Origin: a virus
Virus record (IMG/VR): IMGVR_UViG_3300030451_003662
Location: 1-26,039 of that record
Reading direction: 5' to 3' (one strand)
DNA: 26,039 nucleotides
The notes beneath the pieces were generated by a model. The model ran no database searches and had not been told where the DNA came from. It saw only the letters and a list, made by a program, of their open reading frames with translations. This document shows, in pieces, positions 18,654 to 25,968 of the stretch. Each line of letters opens with the position of its first letter. The stretch's first letter is position 1. Position numbers and translations under genes: made by a program.

Positions 18654-20405
18654 TTATTTTCTCTTTTTAATTTCTAATTTTAGTCCAAGAAGAGAATGCT
18701 TGACTAATTTCTTTGTTTCTTCAAATTCTTTGAGGCCTCTTTGAGCTACTATTACATCACTCTCAGCTTGACTATATGCCGGATATGTTACAACTGAAAT
18801 GTCATATAAAGAATCGATCTCCTCGATTGTTCTTACGTTGTTTCCATCATCGTCATTACTCCATGAATCTTTTTTTACTGTGAAAGCAAATGAACTTTGA
18901 TTAATATTATTATTTTTCATATTAACTAAAAGATCATTAGCATAAGTTGTATTTGGCATTTCGAACTCATATCTTAAACCCTTACTATCTGCCGTTAATT
19001 TTAAAGTGCCTTCTCCATATTTCGAACGGGCTAATATTAAATTAGGATCGTGATTGATCAGGGCCCTTGTGTCAGATCGATTGATTAGATCTTGTGTAAA
19101 AGCTCCTTCTTTAATATATTCATAAAAGTTACCTAAATTTTCACTTCTTGAATTATATACACTTCCGTAACCTACAACCACATTTCTTTTTTGTCCGTCA
19201 ATCTCTCGTGTTTCAATAGAACTATTAATACTAAAAGTTCTTTTTTCAATATTAGGATTGTCGTTTCTTTTCATTGGCTTTTCCTCATCTTCTTCGTGAG
19301 CTCCCGATTTCTCCGGCTTTTCTTCATCTTCCATATGGGCCCCTGATTTTTCGGGATCTTCTTCTTCCATATGAGCCCCTGACTTTTCCGGCTTTTTTTC
19401 CTCGTCTTTATGATAATGAGCTTCTTCCGTTTTTTCTTTACCATCTTCCATAGCACTTAATATATCATCGTGTGAATTGAAAGGCATATATACCTTCATA
19501 CCATCAAGCTCGTGCTCGTGGCTTCCGCTACCTCCCATATTTTTTGCTACATTTTCCGCCTCCTCTTTAGTTGAATAGAGAGGCATTTCGATACCATCAG
19601 TAATCATAGTACCTACTAATTGTCTATTTTCGTTTTCCATATAATATTTTTTTTCGTCTAATTTTTTTCTAACGGGGTGATTTTTTGGTAATAGATCTGT
19701 ATCGTGTTTACCTCTTCTAAACTTTCCATTTTTTAAAGCGTAAAGGAAAGAATTAGTACGGGCAAGGGCCCACTGCTCAGGTGATTTTACGCTTGGCCTG
19801 ACCGATTGAGGATTAGTATGATAAGCCCCTACTCCTCTATCAAAAACTTTTTCTAAAGTGTTTAAAGTAACAGAAGCATTGTAACCTAAATTTTTACCCT
19901 TAACTTCTTCATTATGATCGTCTCTTTTTTTCTCAAGAGATTTTTTAATTTTTGCTGATACTCTTTTTTCTTCTTCTTTTACGATCTCTTTCCTTTTTCT
20001 TTCACTAAAAGCAAATCCAAAATCCCCGCCCCATAATGCTATTGCAATCCTTCCATTTGACGGGTACCCCTTTTCACCGACCTCATAACCTTCAGCCTTT
20101 TTATCCACTTGGTGCCTTGAGTGAAAAGCAAACATTCTTGTAACTCTATCAGGAGTTAATGAATTATTAATAATCATTCTTGCCGTACTTACCCCAACAT
20201 TCGTACCGCCTCTACCAAATTCTTTACGCCACTCCAAACCTTTTTTTGCTTCGTCAATCATTCCTTGAGTTGGAGTTAGATCAATATCACTTACGGCTCT
20301 ATAATAATCTTTATTATCATTTTCGGCCTCAGCTTTTGAATCATATTTACACGATCCTGTTTGCCCAAACTTCCATTTACCATTGTTACATTTATAAGCC
20401 GGCAT
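18654..20405 (-). CDS. Multi-module prohead protease, 583 aa
   Basis: The protease domain (about 388-560) carries the HK97 prohead protease pattern: VVVGYGSVYNSRSENLGNFY, H452 in LINHDPNLILARS, S504-S505 in NINQSSFAFTV and LYDISVVTYPAY. It cleaves the capsid delta domain. Unusually, about 385 residues precede it: a short cysteine module (C6 and C19 in KCNNGKWKFG and GSCKYDSKAEAE), a module with FSRHQVDKKAEGYEV-like residues, AIALWGGDFGFAFSE and QWALARTNSFLYALKNGKFR (about 80-245), a module ending SGSHEHELDGMKVYMPF (about 265-310), and an acidic PEKSGAH repeat (339-370). Typical proteases of this family are about 200 residues. The start overlaps the portal gene by 14 bases. The N-terminal part may be an internal head or scaffold module. 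Confidence 0.9.
   Translation of the reverse strand: MPAYKCNNGKWKFGQTGSCKYDSKAEAENDNKDYYRAVSDIDLTPTQGMIDEAKKGLEWRKEFGRGGTNVGVSTARMIINNSLTPDRVTRMFAFHSRHQVDKKAEGYEVGEKGYPSNGRIAIALWGGDFGFAFSERKRKEIVKEEEKRVSAKIKKSLEKKRDDHNEEVKGKNLGYNASVTLNTLEKVFDRGVGAYHTNPQSVRPSVKSPEQWALARTNSFLYALKNGKFRRGKHDTDLLPKNHPVRKKLDEKKYYMENENRQLVGTMITDGIEMPLYSTKEEAENVAKNMGGSGSHEHELDGMKVYMPFNSHDDILSAMEDGKEKTEEAHYHKDEEKKPEKSGAHMEEEDPEKSGAHMEDEEKPEKSGAHEEDEEKPMKRNDNPNIEKRTFSINSSIETREIDGQKRNVVVGYGSVYNSRSENLGNFYEYIKEGAFTQDLINRSDTRALINHDPNLILARSKYGEGTLKLTADSKGLRYEFEMPNTTYANDLLVNMKNNNINQSSFAFTVKKDSWSNDDDGNNVRTIEEIDSLYDISVVTYPAYSQAESDVIVAQRGLKEFEETKKLVKHSLLGLKLEIKKRK
19290..19395 (-). repeat. Acidic PEKSGAH repeat in the protease
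   Basis: Three copies of PEKSGAH(M)E(E/D)(E/D)E, at residues 339-345, 351-357 and 364-370 of the protease protein, with spacing of 12 and 13 residues. The DNA copies are similar but not identical (synonymous changes such as CCGATTTCTCC versus CCTGATTTTTC on the plus strand), so the duplication is not very recent. The segment is highly acidic and probably disordered, a flexible linker between the N-terminal modules and the protease. Confidence 0.8.
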
Positions 20406-21634: not shown

Positions 21635-21829
21635 TTTTTTTACTCTTCTATTGCGACATACTCGAAAGCTATTATAATCGGAATATCTCCTCTTACCAAA
21701 GTGTAATTCATATTCTTCCTCAAGCTTCTCATATGCCTCTTTATATGTTTTATATTTTGTTGTATTTTTCCAAAATCTTTTGTCAAATCCATCAGGATTC
21801 AATAAAGCTATGATTTCAGTATTTTTCAT
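21626..21829 (-). CDS. Small unknown protein between terL and portal
   Basis: A 67-residue basic protein, ATG start overlapping the terL stop as ATGA. Sequence features are TEIIALLNPDGFDKRFWKNT, YKTYKEAYEKLEEEYELHFG (helical) and a C-terminal basic stretch RRYSDYNSFRVCRNRRVKKC. I do not recognise it. Small genes between the large terminase and portal genes are common in phages of this type, and the C-terminal arginine-lysine cluster suggests binding to DNA or RNA. A packaging accessory role is a guess from position. Confidence 0.65.
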   Translation of the reverse strand: MKNTEIIALLNPDGFDKRFWKNTTKYKTYKEAYEKLEEEYELHFGKRRYSDYNSFRVCRNRRVKKCN

Positions 21830-23373
21830 AAGATCAATAAGCCACGATTATCATATACGCTATCTACTCCGTCAGCCGTCATATATTCACCAAGTGCCAT
21901 TATGGTAGCAACTATACCATCAACCTTTTCTCTAGACTTGTTTTTAGCTACCTTGATATTACCGGCCGGATCTTCTTGGATTGCAACATTAGATAGCATC
22001 CAATTCATTACCGGATTGTTATTATGCATTAATTGTTTGCTTAATACCAATTTTTCAAATTCTTTTGTAGGGGCTGACATACTAACAAAACCTTGACCGA
22101 AAGGGCTCATATTTACACCTTCATTGTTCATAAGATCAATCACAAGTTGCGAGGCATTCCACCGATCGTAAGCTATAGATTGTATTCTATATTTGGATCC
22201 TAACTCTCTTATTTTTTGCTTGATAAATTCATAGTCTTGTACGTCTCCTTCGGTTGGTATTATATGATCTTGATTGATCCAAGTTAAATAATCAACCTTA
22301 TCTCTATTGCTTCTTTTTTTTGCATTTTCTCTTGGCACAAACAAATGCGGAAGAATAAAAAACTTTTCTTTTAATTTAAAAATCAATACTAAAGCTGATA
22401 TATCTCTTGTAGAGGCTAAGTCTAATCCGCCCCAACATTCAAGGCCGTTTAGATCTTCAAGATTAATATTGTAATTACATTTCATCCAATCTTCATTTGG
22501 TATGAATACTGATAAGGAATCCGTCCATAAATTTAACATCAGTCTTTTAAAAGTATTTAGATACGAGGGTACGTCTTTAGCTCTTTGCGATTCCCTAATC
22601 ATATATTCTTTCCTTAAACTCACGCCGTAATTGGGATTGCATTTTTTCCATACCTTCTCACAATCTATATTATCATTATCTTTAGCTTCATAAATTACAG
22701 GATAAAAACTTTCATCCTCAATAGATCCGTCTCTTACTTTACAAGCATAATCATAAAGCTCATAACAAATAGATTGCTTATCATAACCGGCCGTAGTAAT
22801 CGCTATGCAAAGCGGCTCCCTTCGGGCCCCTGTCGAGGTTAAAAGAGTATCCCATAAGTCTCTATTTTTCTGTACGTGCATTTCATCCATCAATATACAA
22901 CTTGCATTGAAGCCGTGTTTAGTAGAACTATCAGAGCTAATAGCTTTAAAGAAATTGCCTTTTGATTCATTGATTATTGAGTTACGAAATACCTTACCCC
23001 TTTTTGATAACTCGGGATTATTCAAAATCATTTGCTTAGCAATATCAAATATTATGTTAGCTTGATTTCTATCACCGGCCGAAGCGTAGATTTCTCCTCC
23101 TCTTTCACGATCTGCGAAAAGCATATACAAACCTATAGCGGCACATAATGTTGTTTTACCATTCTTTCGGGGCACTTGGATATAACAAGTACGATATTTT
23201 CTTAATCCATTCTCTTTGATTTTCATACCAAAAAGATTGCTAATTATTTTCTTTTGCCAATCCTCTAAGATCAAAGATTCTCCGGCCTTTTCACCTTTTG
23301 TATGAGTAATGAAAGTTTCAATAAAGCCAATAGCTTTATCACTCGCTTTTTTATCAAAATAATATTTACTCAA
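21826..23373 (-). CDS. terL: Terminase large subunit
   Basis: A 515-residue packaging motor of the HK97-type Terminase_1 family. The ATPase domain has Walker A VPRKNGKT (67-74), Walker B ILMDEMH (160-166) and a coupling motif region (CIAITTAGYD, 189-198). The nuclease domain has D318 in GLDLASTRD, a second acidic site near AYDRW (401-405) and D485 in KVDGIVATIM. It drives ATP-dependent DNA translocation through the portal and cuts the DNA concatemer. The start codon is TTG (23373-23371); an in-frame TAA lies 12 bases upstream and the next Met is residue 50, so TTG is the best start. It overlaps terS by 8 bases. Confidence 0.96.
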   Translation of the reverse strand: MSKYYFDKKASDKAIGFIETFITHTKGEKAGESLILEDWQKKIISNLFGMKIKENGLRKYRTCYIQVPRKNGKTTLCAAIGLYMLFADRERGGEIYASAGDRNQANIIFDIAKQMILNNPELSKRGKVFRNSIINESKGNFFKAISSDSSTKHGFNASCILMDEMHVQKNRDLWDTLLTSTGARREPLCIAITTAGYDKQSICYELYDYACKVRDGSIEDESFYPVIYEAKDNDNIDCEKVWKKCNPNYGVSLRKEYMIRESQRAKDVPSYLNTFKRLMLNLWTDSLSVFIPNEDWMKCNYNINLEDLNGLECWGGLDLASTRDISALVLIFKLKEKFFILPHLFVPRENAKKRSNRDKVDYLTWINQDHIIPTEGDVQDYEFIKQKIRELGSKYRIQSIAYDRWNASQLVIDLMNNEGVNMSPFGQGFVSMSAPTKEFEKLVLSKQLMHNNNPVMNWMLSNVAIQEDPAGNIKVAKNKSREKVDGIVATIMALGEYMTADGVDSVYDNRGLLIL

Positions 23374-23842
23374 AATAATTATTTATTTGCGTGTTATTAG
23401 TTACGTTCGGAGCTGATATTGAAGCTCTAGCAACCGGAGTTATACCAAATTGTGCTGCTAATTTTAATGCAGAGTTCAAAGCGTCTTTAGATATTTTTTG
23501 ATAGGGCACCGCTTGAGTGTGTTTTAAAGTACCATCAGGGTTTTTAAAAGCTTGGATTCTACCTTTATTTCTTAAGAGTTGCTCAGTCTCTATATATAAA
23601 CTAATCTCATTACAATAAGCTTCTATCAATCTTAGATCTATTTTATGTAGCATATTTAGATTGTGTAATTGTAAAGTGATTTTTTTCCATTCCTGTTTAC
23701 CGATTTTACTGAGCCAAGACGGAGGAGAAGGAACTTCAGAGCATAGATCAACTTGCATTTCATTATCAATTACTCTTGATTTTTCTAATGTACCTTGCAT
23801 TTTTTTTAATGCGGTGGGTAATTTCTTTCGGCCTTTTGACAT
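23366..23842 (-). CDS. terS: Terminase small subunit, P27 family
   Basis: A 158-residue protein of the P27 (Terminase_4) family. The basic start KGRKKLPTALKKMQGTLEKS, then PSPPSWLSKIGKQEWKKIT, the LIEAYCNEISLYIETEQLL helix and the end YQKISKDALNSALKLAAQFG followed by ITPVARAS are all typical. The protein recognises phage DNA to start packaging and regulates the large subunit. The leader (ACAAATATAAAAAAAATG) is A-rich without a Shine-Dalgarno, a common Bacteroidota form. It is the first gene after the hairpin that separates the head genes from the ParB cassette. Confidence 0.92.
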   Translation of the reverse strand: MSKGRKKLPTALKKMQGTLEKSRVIDNEMQVDLCSEVPSPPSWLSKIGKQEWKKITLQLHNLNMLHKIDLRLIEAYCNEISLYIETEQLLRNKGRIQAFKNPDGTLKHTQAVPYQKISKDALNSALKLAAQFGITPVARASISAPNVTNNTQINNYFE

Positions 23843-23870: not shown

Positions 23871-23896
23871 AAATTTGTTTTTTTTGGTAAGTAAAG

Positions 23897-23925
23897 AAAA
23901 CCGGTAATTTTATGTTATCGGTTTT
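23897..23925. terminator. Hairpin terminator between accessory cassette and terS
   Basis: Plus strand AAAACCGGTAA (23897-23907) and TTATCGGTTTT (23915-23925) flank a 7-base loop. On plus-strand RNA the single difference is a G-U pair and a run of nine T follows (23922-23930), a good terminator. On minus-strand RNA the same position is an A-C mismatch and the T-run is TTTTCTTT, a weaker one. It lies right after the stop of the dioxygenase gene, so it can end the cassette transcript and may also block antisense transcription. Confidence 0.7.
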
Positions 23926-23928
23926 TTT

Positions 23929-24708
23929 TTAACAATTTAAAAAAGCATTTAATGGATAAAAAATTAAACTATTTCTGTAGCCCCCTTTTCTTGTTTCTAT
24001 TATTGGGGTAACTCCGTGTAAGTTTCTCCATGCCGGATAAACTAACATAGAGTTGTCAGCCTGTTCAAATGTAGCATCATAATCAGGAACATGTAACGAA
24101 CCGCCTTTTGAATTGTTCCTTTTAGTCAAGATAATATTAACAGTGCCTTTTATGTTTCCTGTATCTCGATGAAAAGGAGCCGAAATATTAAAATTAGATA
24201 TACTGCTTGTAAACAAGTTACCAAATCTCCATTCGTTTTTGATACCTTGAAAAATTTCTTTTTGTCTTTCGTAAATTTTAGGAGTTAATTGTTTAATTAT
24301 TTTTTCTCCTTCAATACAAGCTAACCACATAGCTTTAATAAAAGTTTGTGCGGCTTTATTTCTGTGTACGCTTGATATGTTCGGGTAAGCTCTTTTCATA
24401 CGTGCTTTTGGAGGTATAGAACCGATTATTGTACTATATTGCTCAACGCCTTCTCCTCGCTTTACATCAAGTGCTGATGCACGAGTCATCATAGATTTGG
24501 GTACTCTTTCAGATCTAAATTCTTTGTTTGCTATATTCAAATATGATATTAAATCTTTGCTATATTCTTTGACGTCTTTAATATAAAATCCTATAATCTC
24601 TCCATTGTTTTCTAATAAACAATTTTCAGTAACATTGGGATCAATGTATTTACATTTATTACCGACTTTAATTGTATGTTCTTTTTCTTTTAATTTTAAT
24701 ATTTTCAT
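23929..24708 (-). CDS. Fe(II)/2-oxoglutarate dioxygenase, possibly TET/JBP-like
   Basis: A 259-residue protein. The C-terminal half holds the iron and 2-oxoglutarate site: H180-x-D182 in APFHRDTGN, H231 in NLHGVTP and R245 in GGYRNSLIFY, with KGGSLHVPDYDATF between them. This HRDxGN ... GGxLxVPxY ... LHGVxP ... YRxSL pattern resembles the TET/JBP group of phage oxygenases that hydroxylate pyrimidines in DNA. The N-terminal half (RSERVPKSMMTRASALDVKR, IIGSIPPKARMKRAYPNISS) is family-specific and basic. I chose the ATG at 24708 because it forms a TAA-A-ATG junction with the FkbM gene; the longer form at 24732 would need a GTG. The oxygenase class is fairly sure; DNA as substrate is inference from neighbours. 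Confidence 0.75.
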   Translation of the reverse strand: MKILKLKEKEHTIKVGNKCKYIDPNVTENCLLENNGEIIGFYIKDVKEYSKDLISYLNIANKEFRSERVPKSMMTRASALDVKRGEGVEQYSTIIGSIPPKARMKRAYPNISSVHRNKAAQTFIKAMWLACIEGEKIIKQLTPKIYERQKEIFQGIKNEWRFGNLFTSSISNFNISAPFHRDTGNIKGTVNIILTKRNNSKGGSLHVPDYDATFEQADNSMLVYPAWRNLHGVTPIIETRKGGYRNSLIFYPLNAFLNC

Positions 24709-24709
24709 T

Positions 24710-25390
24710 TTAATAATTATATACGTTAGCACAAGGAGGAAACCATGATTTTTGCCACATTACGTAATCATGCGAAAAGCTTGGAGCCTTCACATTTTTG
24801 TAATGCTTCTTCATTTTGTTTACTATTTTGCGATATCTATTTATACTTTCATCTACATCAAAACTCCATTCGAAAACTAATTTTTTTGGAAAGATTTGTA
24901 AGCCCTCTAAAATTGACATTTCTGCACCTTCAATATCCATTTTACAACAAAGTTTTTTTGAATTTAAAACCTCGCTGAAGTGAATCGTATCTACATTAAA
25001 AACTTCATTGCCCCAATCTTTATATAGAGAGTTTCTCCAAACTTGTTTATTATTACCGACATACATCCGCATCTTTTTTTGATCAGAAGATACTACTGCT
25101 TTTTGAATTATATCAGCATCAAAATTATTGAGCTTTAAATTTTTTTCAATCATTCTACAAGAAAAAGGATCGGGCTCATATATTTTTACTTTAGCGTTAT
25201 TCTTTAAAACCATTAAAGCGAAGGCCCCTACATTGCCACCTAAATCAATCCACTCTTCACCGGATTCGATTTGAAAGTATTTTCTTTGATATGAGTTTTT
25301 TTCTATGACTTCTCTAAAAGCTTTTTCATCACTCGTACCCTCTCTAACATAAAATTTAAGATCGTCATGCTCTAATATTTTTAATCGCAT
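24710..25390 (-). CDS. FkbM-family methyltransferase
   Basis: A 226-residue SAM-dependent methyltransferase. The SAM-binding loop is EEWIDLGGNVGAFAL (45-59, D49 and the GGNVG loop), the acidic residue after strand 2 is E72 in YEPDP, and the FkbM hallmark is CKMDIEGAEMSILEGL (149-164). FkbM enzymes methylate hydroxyl groups, often on sugars or secondary metabolites. Here the gene sits between a ParB-domain gene (10-base overlap) and a dioxygenase gene (one base apart). O-methylation of a hydroxyl made by the dioxygenase is an attractive reading, but alternative substrates such as glycans or a virion protein are not excluded. Confidence 0.88.
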   Translation of the reverse strand: MRLKILEHDDLKFYVREGTSDEKAFREVIEKNSYQRKYFQIESGEEWIDLGGNVGAFALMVLKNNAKVKIYEPDPFSCRMIEKNLKLNNFDADIIQKAVVSSDQKKMRMYVGNNKQVWRNSLYKDWGNEVFNVDTIHFSEVLNSKKLCCKMDIEGAEMSILEGLQIFPKKLVFEWSFDVDESINRYRKIVNKMKKHYKNVKAPSFSHDYVMWQKSWFPPCANVYNY

Positions 25391-25968
25391 TTCTCACATC
25401 TTAATTTATCTAAAACTAAAGCCCCTACGTTAACGCCTTTATTACGAAGCTTAGATATTCTCTCATAGGCCTCATCATATGTATCAAGATCGAACTCGAT
25501 TTGAATAGCTTTTTTTGAACTTGATTTTTTTTGTTCTAAGACTTGATCGATCTCTACATTATCTAAAATAGAATAATCTAATTCTTGATCGTCCGGCTCG
25601 AAGATCTCTGAAGCGTGGAAACCCCAATCAATTAATTCCTCATATTCAAAATATTTAACTAATAAATCATCGTCAAAAGATCCTCCATTTTTATTTAATC
25701 TGATATTTAATTCCTTTTCTTTTTCTAAAGTCAAATTCAATTCATTACAAGGGATCTCATCATTGCCAAGCTCTTGCCATATTTTAAGTCGTTGATGCCC
25801 GCCAATTACAATATTTTTTCTTTCGGTATTTACATTAATAATTATTGGATCTACAACGCCGAATTTTTCCAAAGAATTTTTTAAATCTTCTTGTTGTACT
25901 TTTGTTATTTTTCTTGGATTATATTCAGATTGAATTAACTCGTTTATTTTTCTATTTGTTATTTTCAT
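25381..25968 (-). CDS. ParB/Srx-domain protein without methylase domain
   Basis: A 195-residue protein. Residues 5-75 are the ParB/sulfiredoxin-like domain: SEYNPRKITKVQQEDLKNSL, FGVVDPIIIN and IVIGGHQRLKIWQELG with the GGHQR motif (56-60). Residues 85-118 (KELNIRLNKNGGSFDDDLLV then the DWGF motif) are the linker commonly joining this domain to a C-terminal N4/N6 DNA methylase in phages, but that methylase is absent. Instead a short domain follows (KKAIQIEFDLDTYDEAYERI to the end, with C191 and C194 in CEKC). Such phage ParB proteins can be DNA-binding nucleases or CTP-dependent switches. It heads the cassette upstream of the terminase genes. Confidence 0.88.
   Translation of the reverse strand: MKITNRKINELIQSEYNPRKITKVQQEDLKNSLEKFGVVDPIIINVNTERKNIVIGGHQRLKIWQELGNDEIPCNELNLTLEKEKELNIRLNKNGGSFDDDLLVKYFEYEELIDWGFHASEIFEPDDQELDYSILDNVEIDQVLEQKKSSSKKAIQIEFDLDTYDEAYERISKLRNKGVNVGALVLDKLRCEKCD

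Follow-up and report, generated by a model that had tools for sequence, protein, structure and literature searches.

A ParB-FkbM-TET/JBP cassette beside phage terminase genes with a predicted role in hydroxylation and O-methylation of a DNA base

The viral DNA studied here (the window, i.e. the whole stretch of 26,039 nucleotides that was analysed, from IMG/VR record IMGVR_UViG_3300030451_003662) carries on its minus strand, directly upstream of terS-terL, a cassette of three genes which overlap or abut and encode a ParB-domain protein, an FkbM-family methyltransferase and a TET/JBP dioxygenase (Table 1). The TET/JBP identity of the dioxygenase and the natural exchange of the FkbM gene for other tailoring genes make it somewhat probable that the cassette is a compact system for DNA-base hypermodification, in which hydroxylation by the TET enzyme would be followed by O-methylation by FkbM.

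Results

The first-pass annotation of the window had described adjoining or overlapping genes for ParB, FkbM and a dioxygenase, and all three were confirmed as open reading frames with the corresponding Pfam matches. The two terminase subunits alongside them also score far above the cut-offs of their profiles. The ParB and FkbM genes overlap by 10 bases. For the TET gene, a GTG start at 24732 is listed, which is probably too long since the relatives begin at the residue matching the ATG at 24708; from this preferred ATG the gene begins 1 base past the FkbM stop codon. The hairpin previously noticed between the cassette and terS does exist (arms 23893-23907 and 23915-23929). Its fold is strong only for the plus-strand transcript (z -4.8); for the minus strand, which is the coding one, it is weak (z -1.3), and a terminator scan returned none, so that it is no clear terminator of the cassette. 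The repeat contains a long T run, the neighbouring genes being on the minus strand.

Table 1. Features of the cassette (25968-23929, minus strand) and of the adjacent terminase region.
Feature	Position	Strand	Evidence
ParB_N-domain protein, 195 aa, cassette gene 1	25381..25968	-	Pfam PF02195 (ParB_N), 9.4e-8; PHROG families of ParB-like and DNA methyltransferase-associated type
FkbM-family SAM-dependent methyltransferase, 226 aa, exchangeable tailoring slot	24710..25390	-	Pfam PF05050, 3.2e-10; TIGR01444
TET/JBP 2OG-Fe(II) nucleobase dioxygenase, 259 aa	23929..24708	-	Pfam PF12851 (Tet_JBP), 3.7e-9
Inverted repeat between TET and terS, 15-nt arms, 7-nt loop	23893..23929	.	Folding
Terminase small subunit, conserved neighbour downstream of the cassette	23366..23842	-	PF05119, 3.3e-18
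Terminase large subunit	21826..23373	-	PF20441, 7.5e-49; PF03354, 1.6e-28

The dioxygenase belongs to the TET/JBP family. A profile search and a structural comparison, both proposed in the first-pass annotation, agree on this point: the protein scores 36.5-36.6 bits against Tet_JBP (PF12851), above the curated Pfam cut-off of 34.9, all 38 aligned relatives also match this profile, and its AlphaFold model (pLDDT 92.9), a double-stranded beta-helix, is closest to TET-type enzymes, with CcTet, TET2, NgTet1 and CMD1 filling ranks 1-26 of a Foldseek comparison with the PDB and FTO, AlkB and the small-molecule enzyme ACO ranking below them. Residues H180, D182, N185, H231, R245 and Y251 are invariant in the 38 aligned relatives; they include the HxD...H iron triad (H180, D182, H231) and the 2OG-binding arginine (R245), the pattern that had been recognized from the sequence at the outset. 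Placement in another 2OG-Fe family, which had been named as a finding that would speak against base modification, is ruled out by both Pfam and Foldseek. Based on family and fold, the enzyme very probably oxidises a base in phage DNA. In phrog_6059 and in RefSeq records (MED4-117, MED4-184 and mycobacteriophages) the phage TET/JBP family is labelled 'queuine tRNA-ribosyltransferase', a label which is contradicted by the TET profile and fold and is apparently a propagated error; the TET protein of HTVC112P is labelled 'DnaJ chaperone/SNF2 DNA repair'.

The FkbM protein scores 40.8 bits against PF05050 (Methyltransf_21/FkbM; cut-off 22.7) and 60.2 bits against TIGR01444 (cut-off 37.7), and PF05050 was matched in 38 of 38 FkbM members scanned. 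Its SAM motifs, earlier described as intact, are conserved as DxGGNxGAF and KMDIEGAE. The model (pLDDT 92.5) has a class I methyltransferase fold, the closest structures found by Foldseek being nucleic-acid and other class I methyltransferases at a TM of about 0.5; as these are general members of the class, the acceptor is not readable from the structure. The loop W118-R119-N120-S121 is invariant in 38 aligned FkbM relatives and might, judged from this conservation, be the substrate site. Neither TET-associated glycosyltransferase (TAGT, PF20691) nor kinase profiles matched in the window or in the examined portions of MED4-117, HTVC112P and MED4-184 (for the last of these, the whole record). 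FkbM is thus the sole tailoring enzyme found beside TET, and the window cassette itself is no TAGT system, in line with the initial statement that the window holds no glycosyltransferase.

The combination of ParB, FkbM and TET is conserved far beyond chance. Among 82 distinct FkbM relatives (about 80 from IMG/VR, the remainder belonging to the window and to cultured phages), 79 immediately adjoin a profile-detected TET gene, mostly with overlapping reading frames (median -13 nt), and ParB lies at most three genes away in 75. A neighbourhood survey had been suggested at the outset, and the pairing evidently recurs. As many as 81 of the 82 belong to TET cassettes, including locus L126, in which TET is two genes from FkbM, and HTVC112P, in which a divergent Tet_JBP gene (1.1e-29) stands beside FkbM; the only relative lacking TET is a weakly related Rhodococcus phage protein. 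All three genes occur in the cultured phages MED4-117 and MED4-184/P-HS2 (Prochlorococcus) and HTVC112P (Pelagibacter), with the order ParB-FkbM-TET-(small gene)-terL in MED4-117 and MED4-184 (P-HS2, host Prochlorococcus MED4). When 84,980 bacterial and archaeal genomes were scanned with a sequence pattern, no relative turned up, either as a bacterial homologue or in a prophage. At loci L101, L124, L256 and L268 a divergent TET gene is followed by FkbM, with no ParB ahead.

Across the TET relatives the order ParB-X-TET-terminase is constant while X varies, being FkbM, a TAGT, a P-loop kinase, or a combination of kinase, ADDT and PLP genes. Of 181 distinct TETs, 73 have FkbM and no other gene in the slot behind ParB, 6 have a kinase alone, and 66 have TAGT-type genes (GT9, GT23 and GT29 plus one double), GT29 having no Pfam match and being called glycosyltransferase-like by appearance only. 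As TET and FkbM served as the queries for collecting this set, its proportions are not natural frequencies. The remaining slots include kinase with ADDT, GATase or PLP genes, or genes read as putative GT-B enzymes, the latter at two loci and with no Pfam match. When the slot label was placed on a tree of 119 TETs, at least 34 changes were counted, the long-branch L101 group, L134 and L162 being placed unsurely. The clearest case is the pair of sister phages L261 (FkbM) and L212 (TAGT), in which conserved flanking blocks are 91-96% identical and the homology breaks off with the final base of ParB and returns where TET begins, i.e. a natural and clean one-gene swap of tailoring enzymes. It is chiefly because FkbM alternates in this way with TAGT and kinase that we regard the TET product as the most likely target of FkbM.

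Several loci differ in the composition of the slot. Between ParB and TET, loci L214, L215 and L216 carry genes for a glutamine amidotransferase and an ADDT (PF18724) alongside a P-loop kinase gene, which suggests an amine-bearing base, and locus L070 (8599-10004) has two different TAGT-like genes in tandem, suggesting a two-sugar modification. A PLP-dependent enzyme (PF00291, just below the cut-off) and a kinase lie beside TET in L196 (3574-4509). The cassette of L126 (7822-11980) comprises six genes, for ParB, ADDT, an FAD enzyme, FkbM, a P-loop kinase and TET, and is the only one in which FkbM occurs together with kinase and ADDT; the methyltransferase is thereby joined to a pathway of thymidine hypermodification.

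Discussion

We propose that a pyrimidine of the phage DNA, thymine being the likeliest one, would be hydroxylated at its 5-methyl group by the TET/JBP protein in a reaction with Fe(II), O2 and 2-oxoglutarate, so that 5-hydroxymethyluracil would form. FkbM would then use SAM to O-methylate the newly made hydroxyl, yielding 5-(methoxymethyl)uracil, as both the enzyme family and the exchange in the slot suggest; this methylation would replace the glycosylation or phosphorylation expected of TAGT or kinase at the same position in sister phages. ParB would probably attach to DNA and recruit the two enzymes there. It is present in nearly all relatives, whichever enzyme fills the slot, and is thus a general component which is not specific to methylation. 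Packaging of the modified DNA would fall to the adjacent terminase, and this DNA would probably escape host nucleases. The first-pass annotation had already proposed a base hydroxyl made by the dioxygenase and methylated by FkbM; the Tet_JBP identity and the slot swap now stand behind this proposal, the enzymatic steps being deduced by comparison.

Which pyrimidine is modified is indicated by several observations. Neither the window (an incomplete record), as had been stated before, nor any of the complete MED4-117, MED4-184 and HTVC112P records contains a C5-cytosine methyltransferase gene; over 50 records, most of them fragmentary, one was found in 4. In view of these counts the earlier suggestion that such a gene could lie beyond the right edge of the window has become less likely, and yet, for the window phage, 5mC may be supplied by the host or a C5-methyltransferase may be encoded past the edge. 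None of the 50 records showed a synthase or hydroxymethylase of the ThyA type. Kinase and ADDT, which are enzymes of thymidine pathways, co-occur with relatives of the window TET. In addition, the histidine with which TET2 reads cytosine is aligned with a leucine in the window TET and its clade, and leucine is also found there in actinophage TETs beside kinase and glycosylase/aGPT-Pplase genes. Taken together, the missing C5-methyltransferase in the window and the cultured relatives, the thymidine-pathway partners and the leucine make thymine a likelier substrate of TET than cytosine.

In a cytosine version of the pathway, a phage or host C5-methyltransferase would make 5mC, TET would convert it to 5hmC and FkbM would form 5-(methoxymethyl)cytosine. 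Characterised eukaryotic TETs do act on 5mC, Burke et al. in 2021 reportedly described phage TETs together with C5-methyltransferases, a few FkbM-TET records carry such a gene, and N185 aligns with the base-contacting asparagine of TET2; however, the rarity of the methyltransferase, the leucine and the thymidine-pathway partners described above all argue for the thymine route, and we consider cytosine unlikely, if a serious candidate. With a still smaller probability FkbM might methylate another group, namely a carboxyl formed by further oxidation (giving the methyl ester of 5-carboxyuracil) or a moiety already on the base. TETs can oxidise past the hydroxymethyl stage, and in L126, in which FkbM coexists with a kinase, an ADDT and an FAD enzyme, FkbM may indeed have an acceptor that is not the hydroxymethyl oxygen. 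However, no tailoring enzyme apart from FkbM was found next to TET in the window or in P-HS2, FkbM takes the very place of TAGT, an enzyme that should require a hydroxyl, and the namesake FkbM is an O-methyltransferase.

That FkbM acts before TET, providing a methylated base which TET then oxidises, is very unlikely. The gene order ParB-FkbM-TET would fit this sequence of events, a methyltransferase followed by TET is the logic of cytosine systems, and RNA uracil-C5 methyltransferases are among the best Foldseek matches of the FkbM model; but PF05050/TIGR01444 is a family of the O-methyltransferase type, and many relatives have only TAGT or kinase in the slot, so TET evidently needs no FkbM to obtain its substrate. 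Glycans and natural products are the substrates of most FkbM proteins, and one might imagine a cassette without any role in DNA modification, the target of FkbM being a glycan or small molecule and its position beside TET incidental. It is hardly credible in the light of the near-constant adjacency to TET, the lack of any relative in the bacterial genomes scanned (84,980 species) and the slot swap with TAGT. Hydroxylation by TET followed by O-methylation of the resulting hydroxyl accordingly stays our preferred, if provisional, reading.

The cassette shares features with several known systems. It resembles phage TET + TAGT cassettes in the order ParB, slot gene, TET and terminase and in its homologous TETs and ParBs, sister phages differing only in the slot gene; here, in contrast, FkbM occupies the slot and a methyl group is predicted instead of a sugar. 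In the hypermodification of thymidine that TET initiates in actinophages (mycobacteriophage Prince and Rhodococcus phage Tonitrus), ParB and TET are likewise located near the terminase and thymine is the proposed substrate (PMC11955845), whereas the accompanying genes encode an aGPT-PPlase/DNA glycosylase-like protein and a kinase rather than a methyltransferase. The window, with no kinase profile match, does not fall into this 5hmdU kinase/aGPT-PPlase pathway; its architecture is TET beside ParB and a slot enzyme, next to the terminase, with FkbM as the putative tailoring enzyme of the hydroxyl. The 5-hydroxymethylcytosine carbamoyltransferase (PMC8670742) also represents a transferase family unexpected for DNA which targets a base hydroxymethyl, but there the base is cytosine, the hydroxymethyl is premade by dCMP hydroxymethylase, and a carbamoyl group is added. 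Compared to known FkbM O-methyltransferases (PF05050, TIGR01444), the cassette enzymes share fold and motifs but form a clade that is found only in phages and is linked to TET.

Hypermodification systems that pair TET with a TAGT or a kinase are already known. In the searchable literature we found no report of FkbM with TET or a dioxygenase in phages and, in the literature searched, no mention of a 'methoxymethyl' DNA base; the novelty of the FkbM-TET link is not fully certain, as central older papers on phage TET neighbourhoods lie outside that literature. We give about an even chance to the joint proposal that 5-(methoxymethyl)uracil, or its cytosine counterpart, is a widespread new DNA base made in situ by TET and then FkbM, and that FkbM is a DNA hydroxymethylpyrimidine O-methyltransferase. 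If so, phages would cap the TET-made hydroxymethyl with a methyl group, the smallest possible cap, creating a natural base absent from the literature searched, and the new activity could be useful in epigenetic sequencing chemistry. For the tailoring step, phages swap just one gene; thus, a single recombination would alter the predicted chemistry of their DNA and leave ParB, TET and terminase in place. The presence of the cassette in the cultured phages P-HS2 and HTVC112P makes the prediction directly testable.

A role of the cassette as a defence system was considered and rejected, PADLOC returning a weak generic 2OG match and a type II methyltransferase match on the ParB N-terminus and nothing else. 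Elsewhere in the window (18654-20405), a long open reading frame upstream of the predicted major capsid gene contains an acidic repeat region (EKSGAHMEEED...) and is, judged by its position, perhaps a prohead protease fusion.
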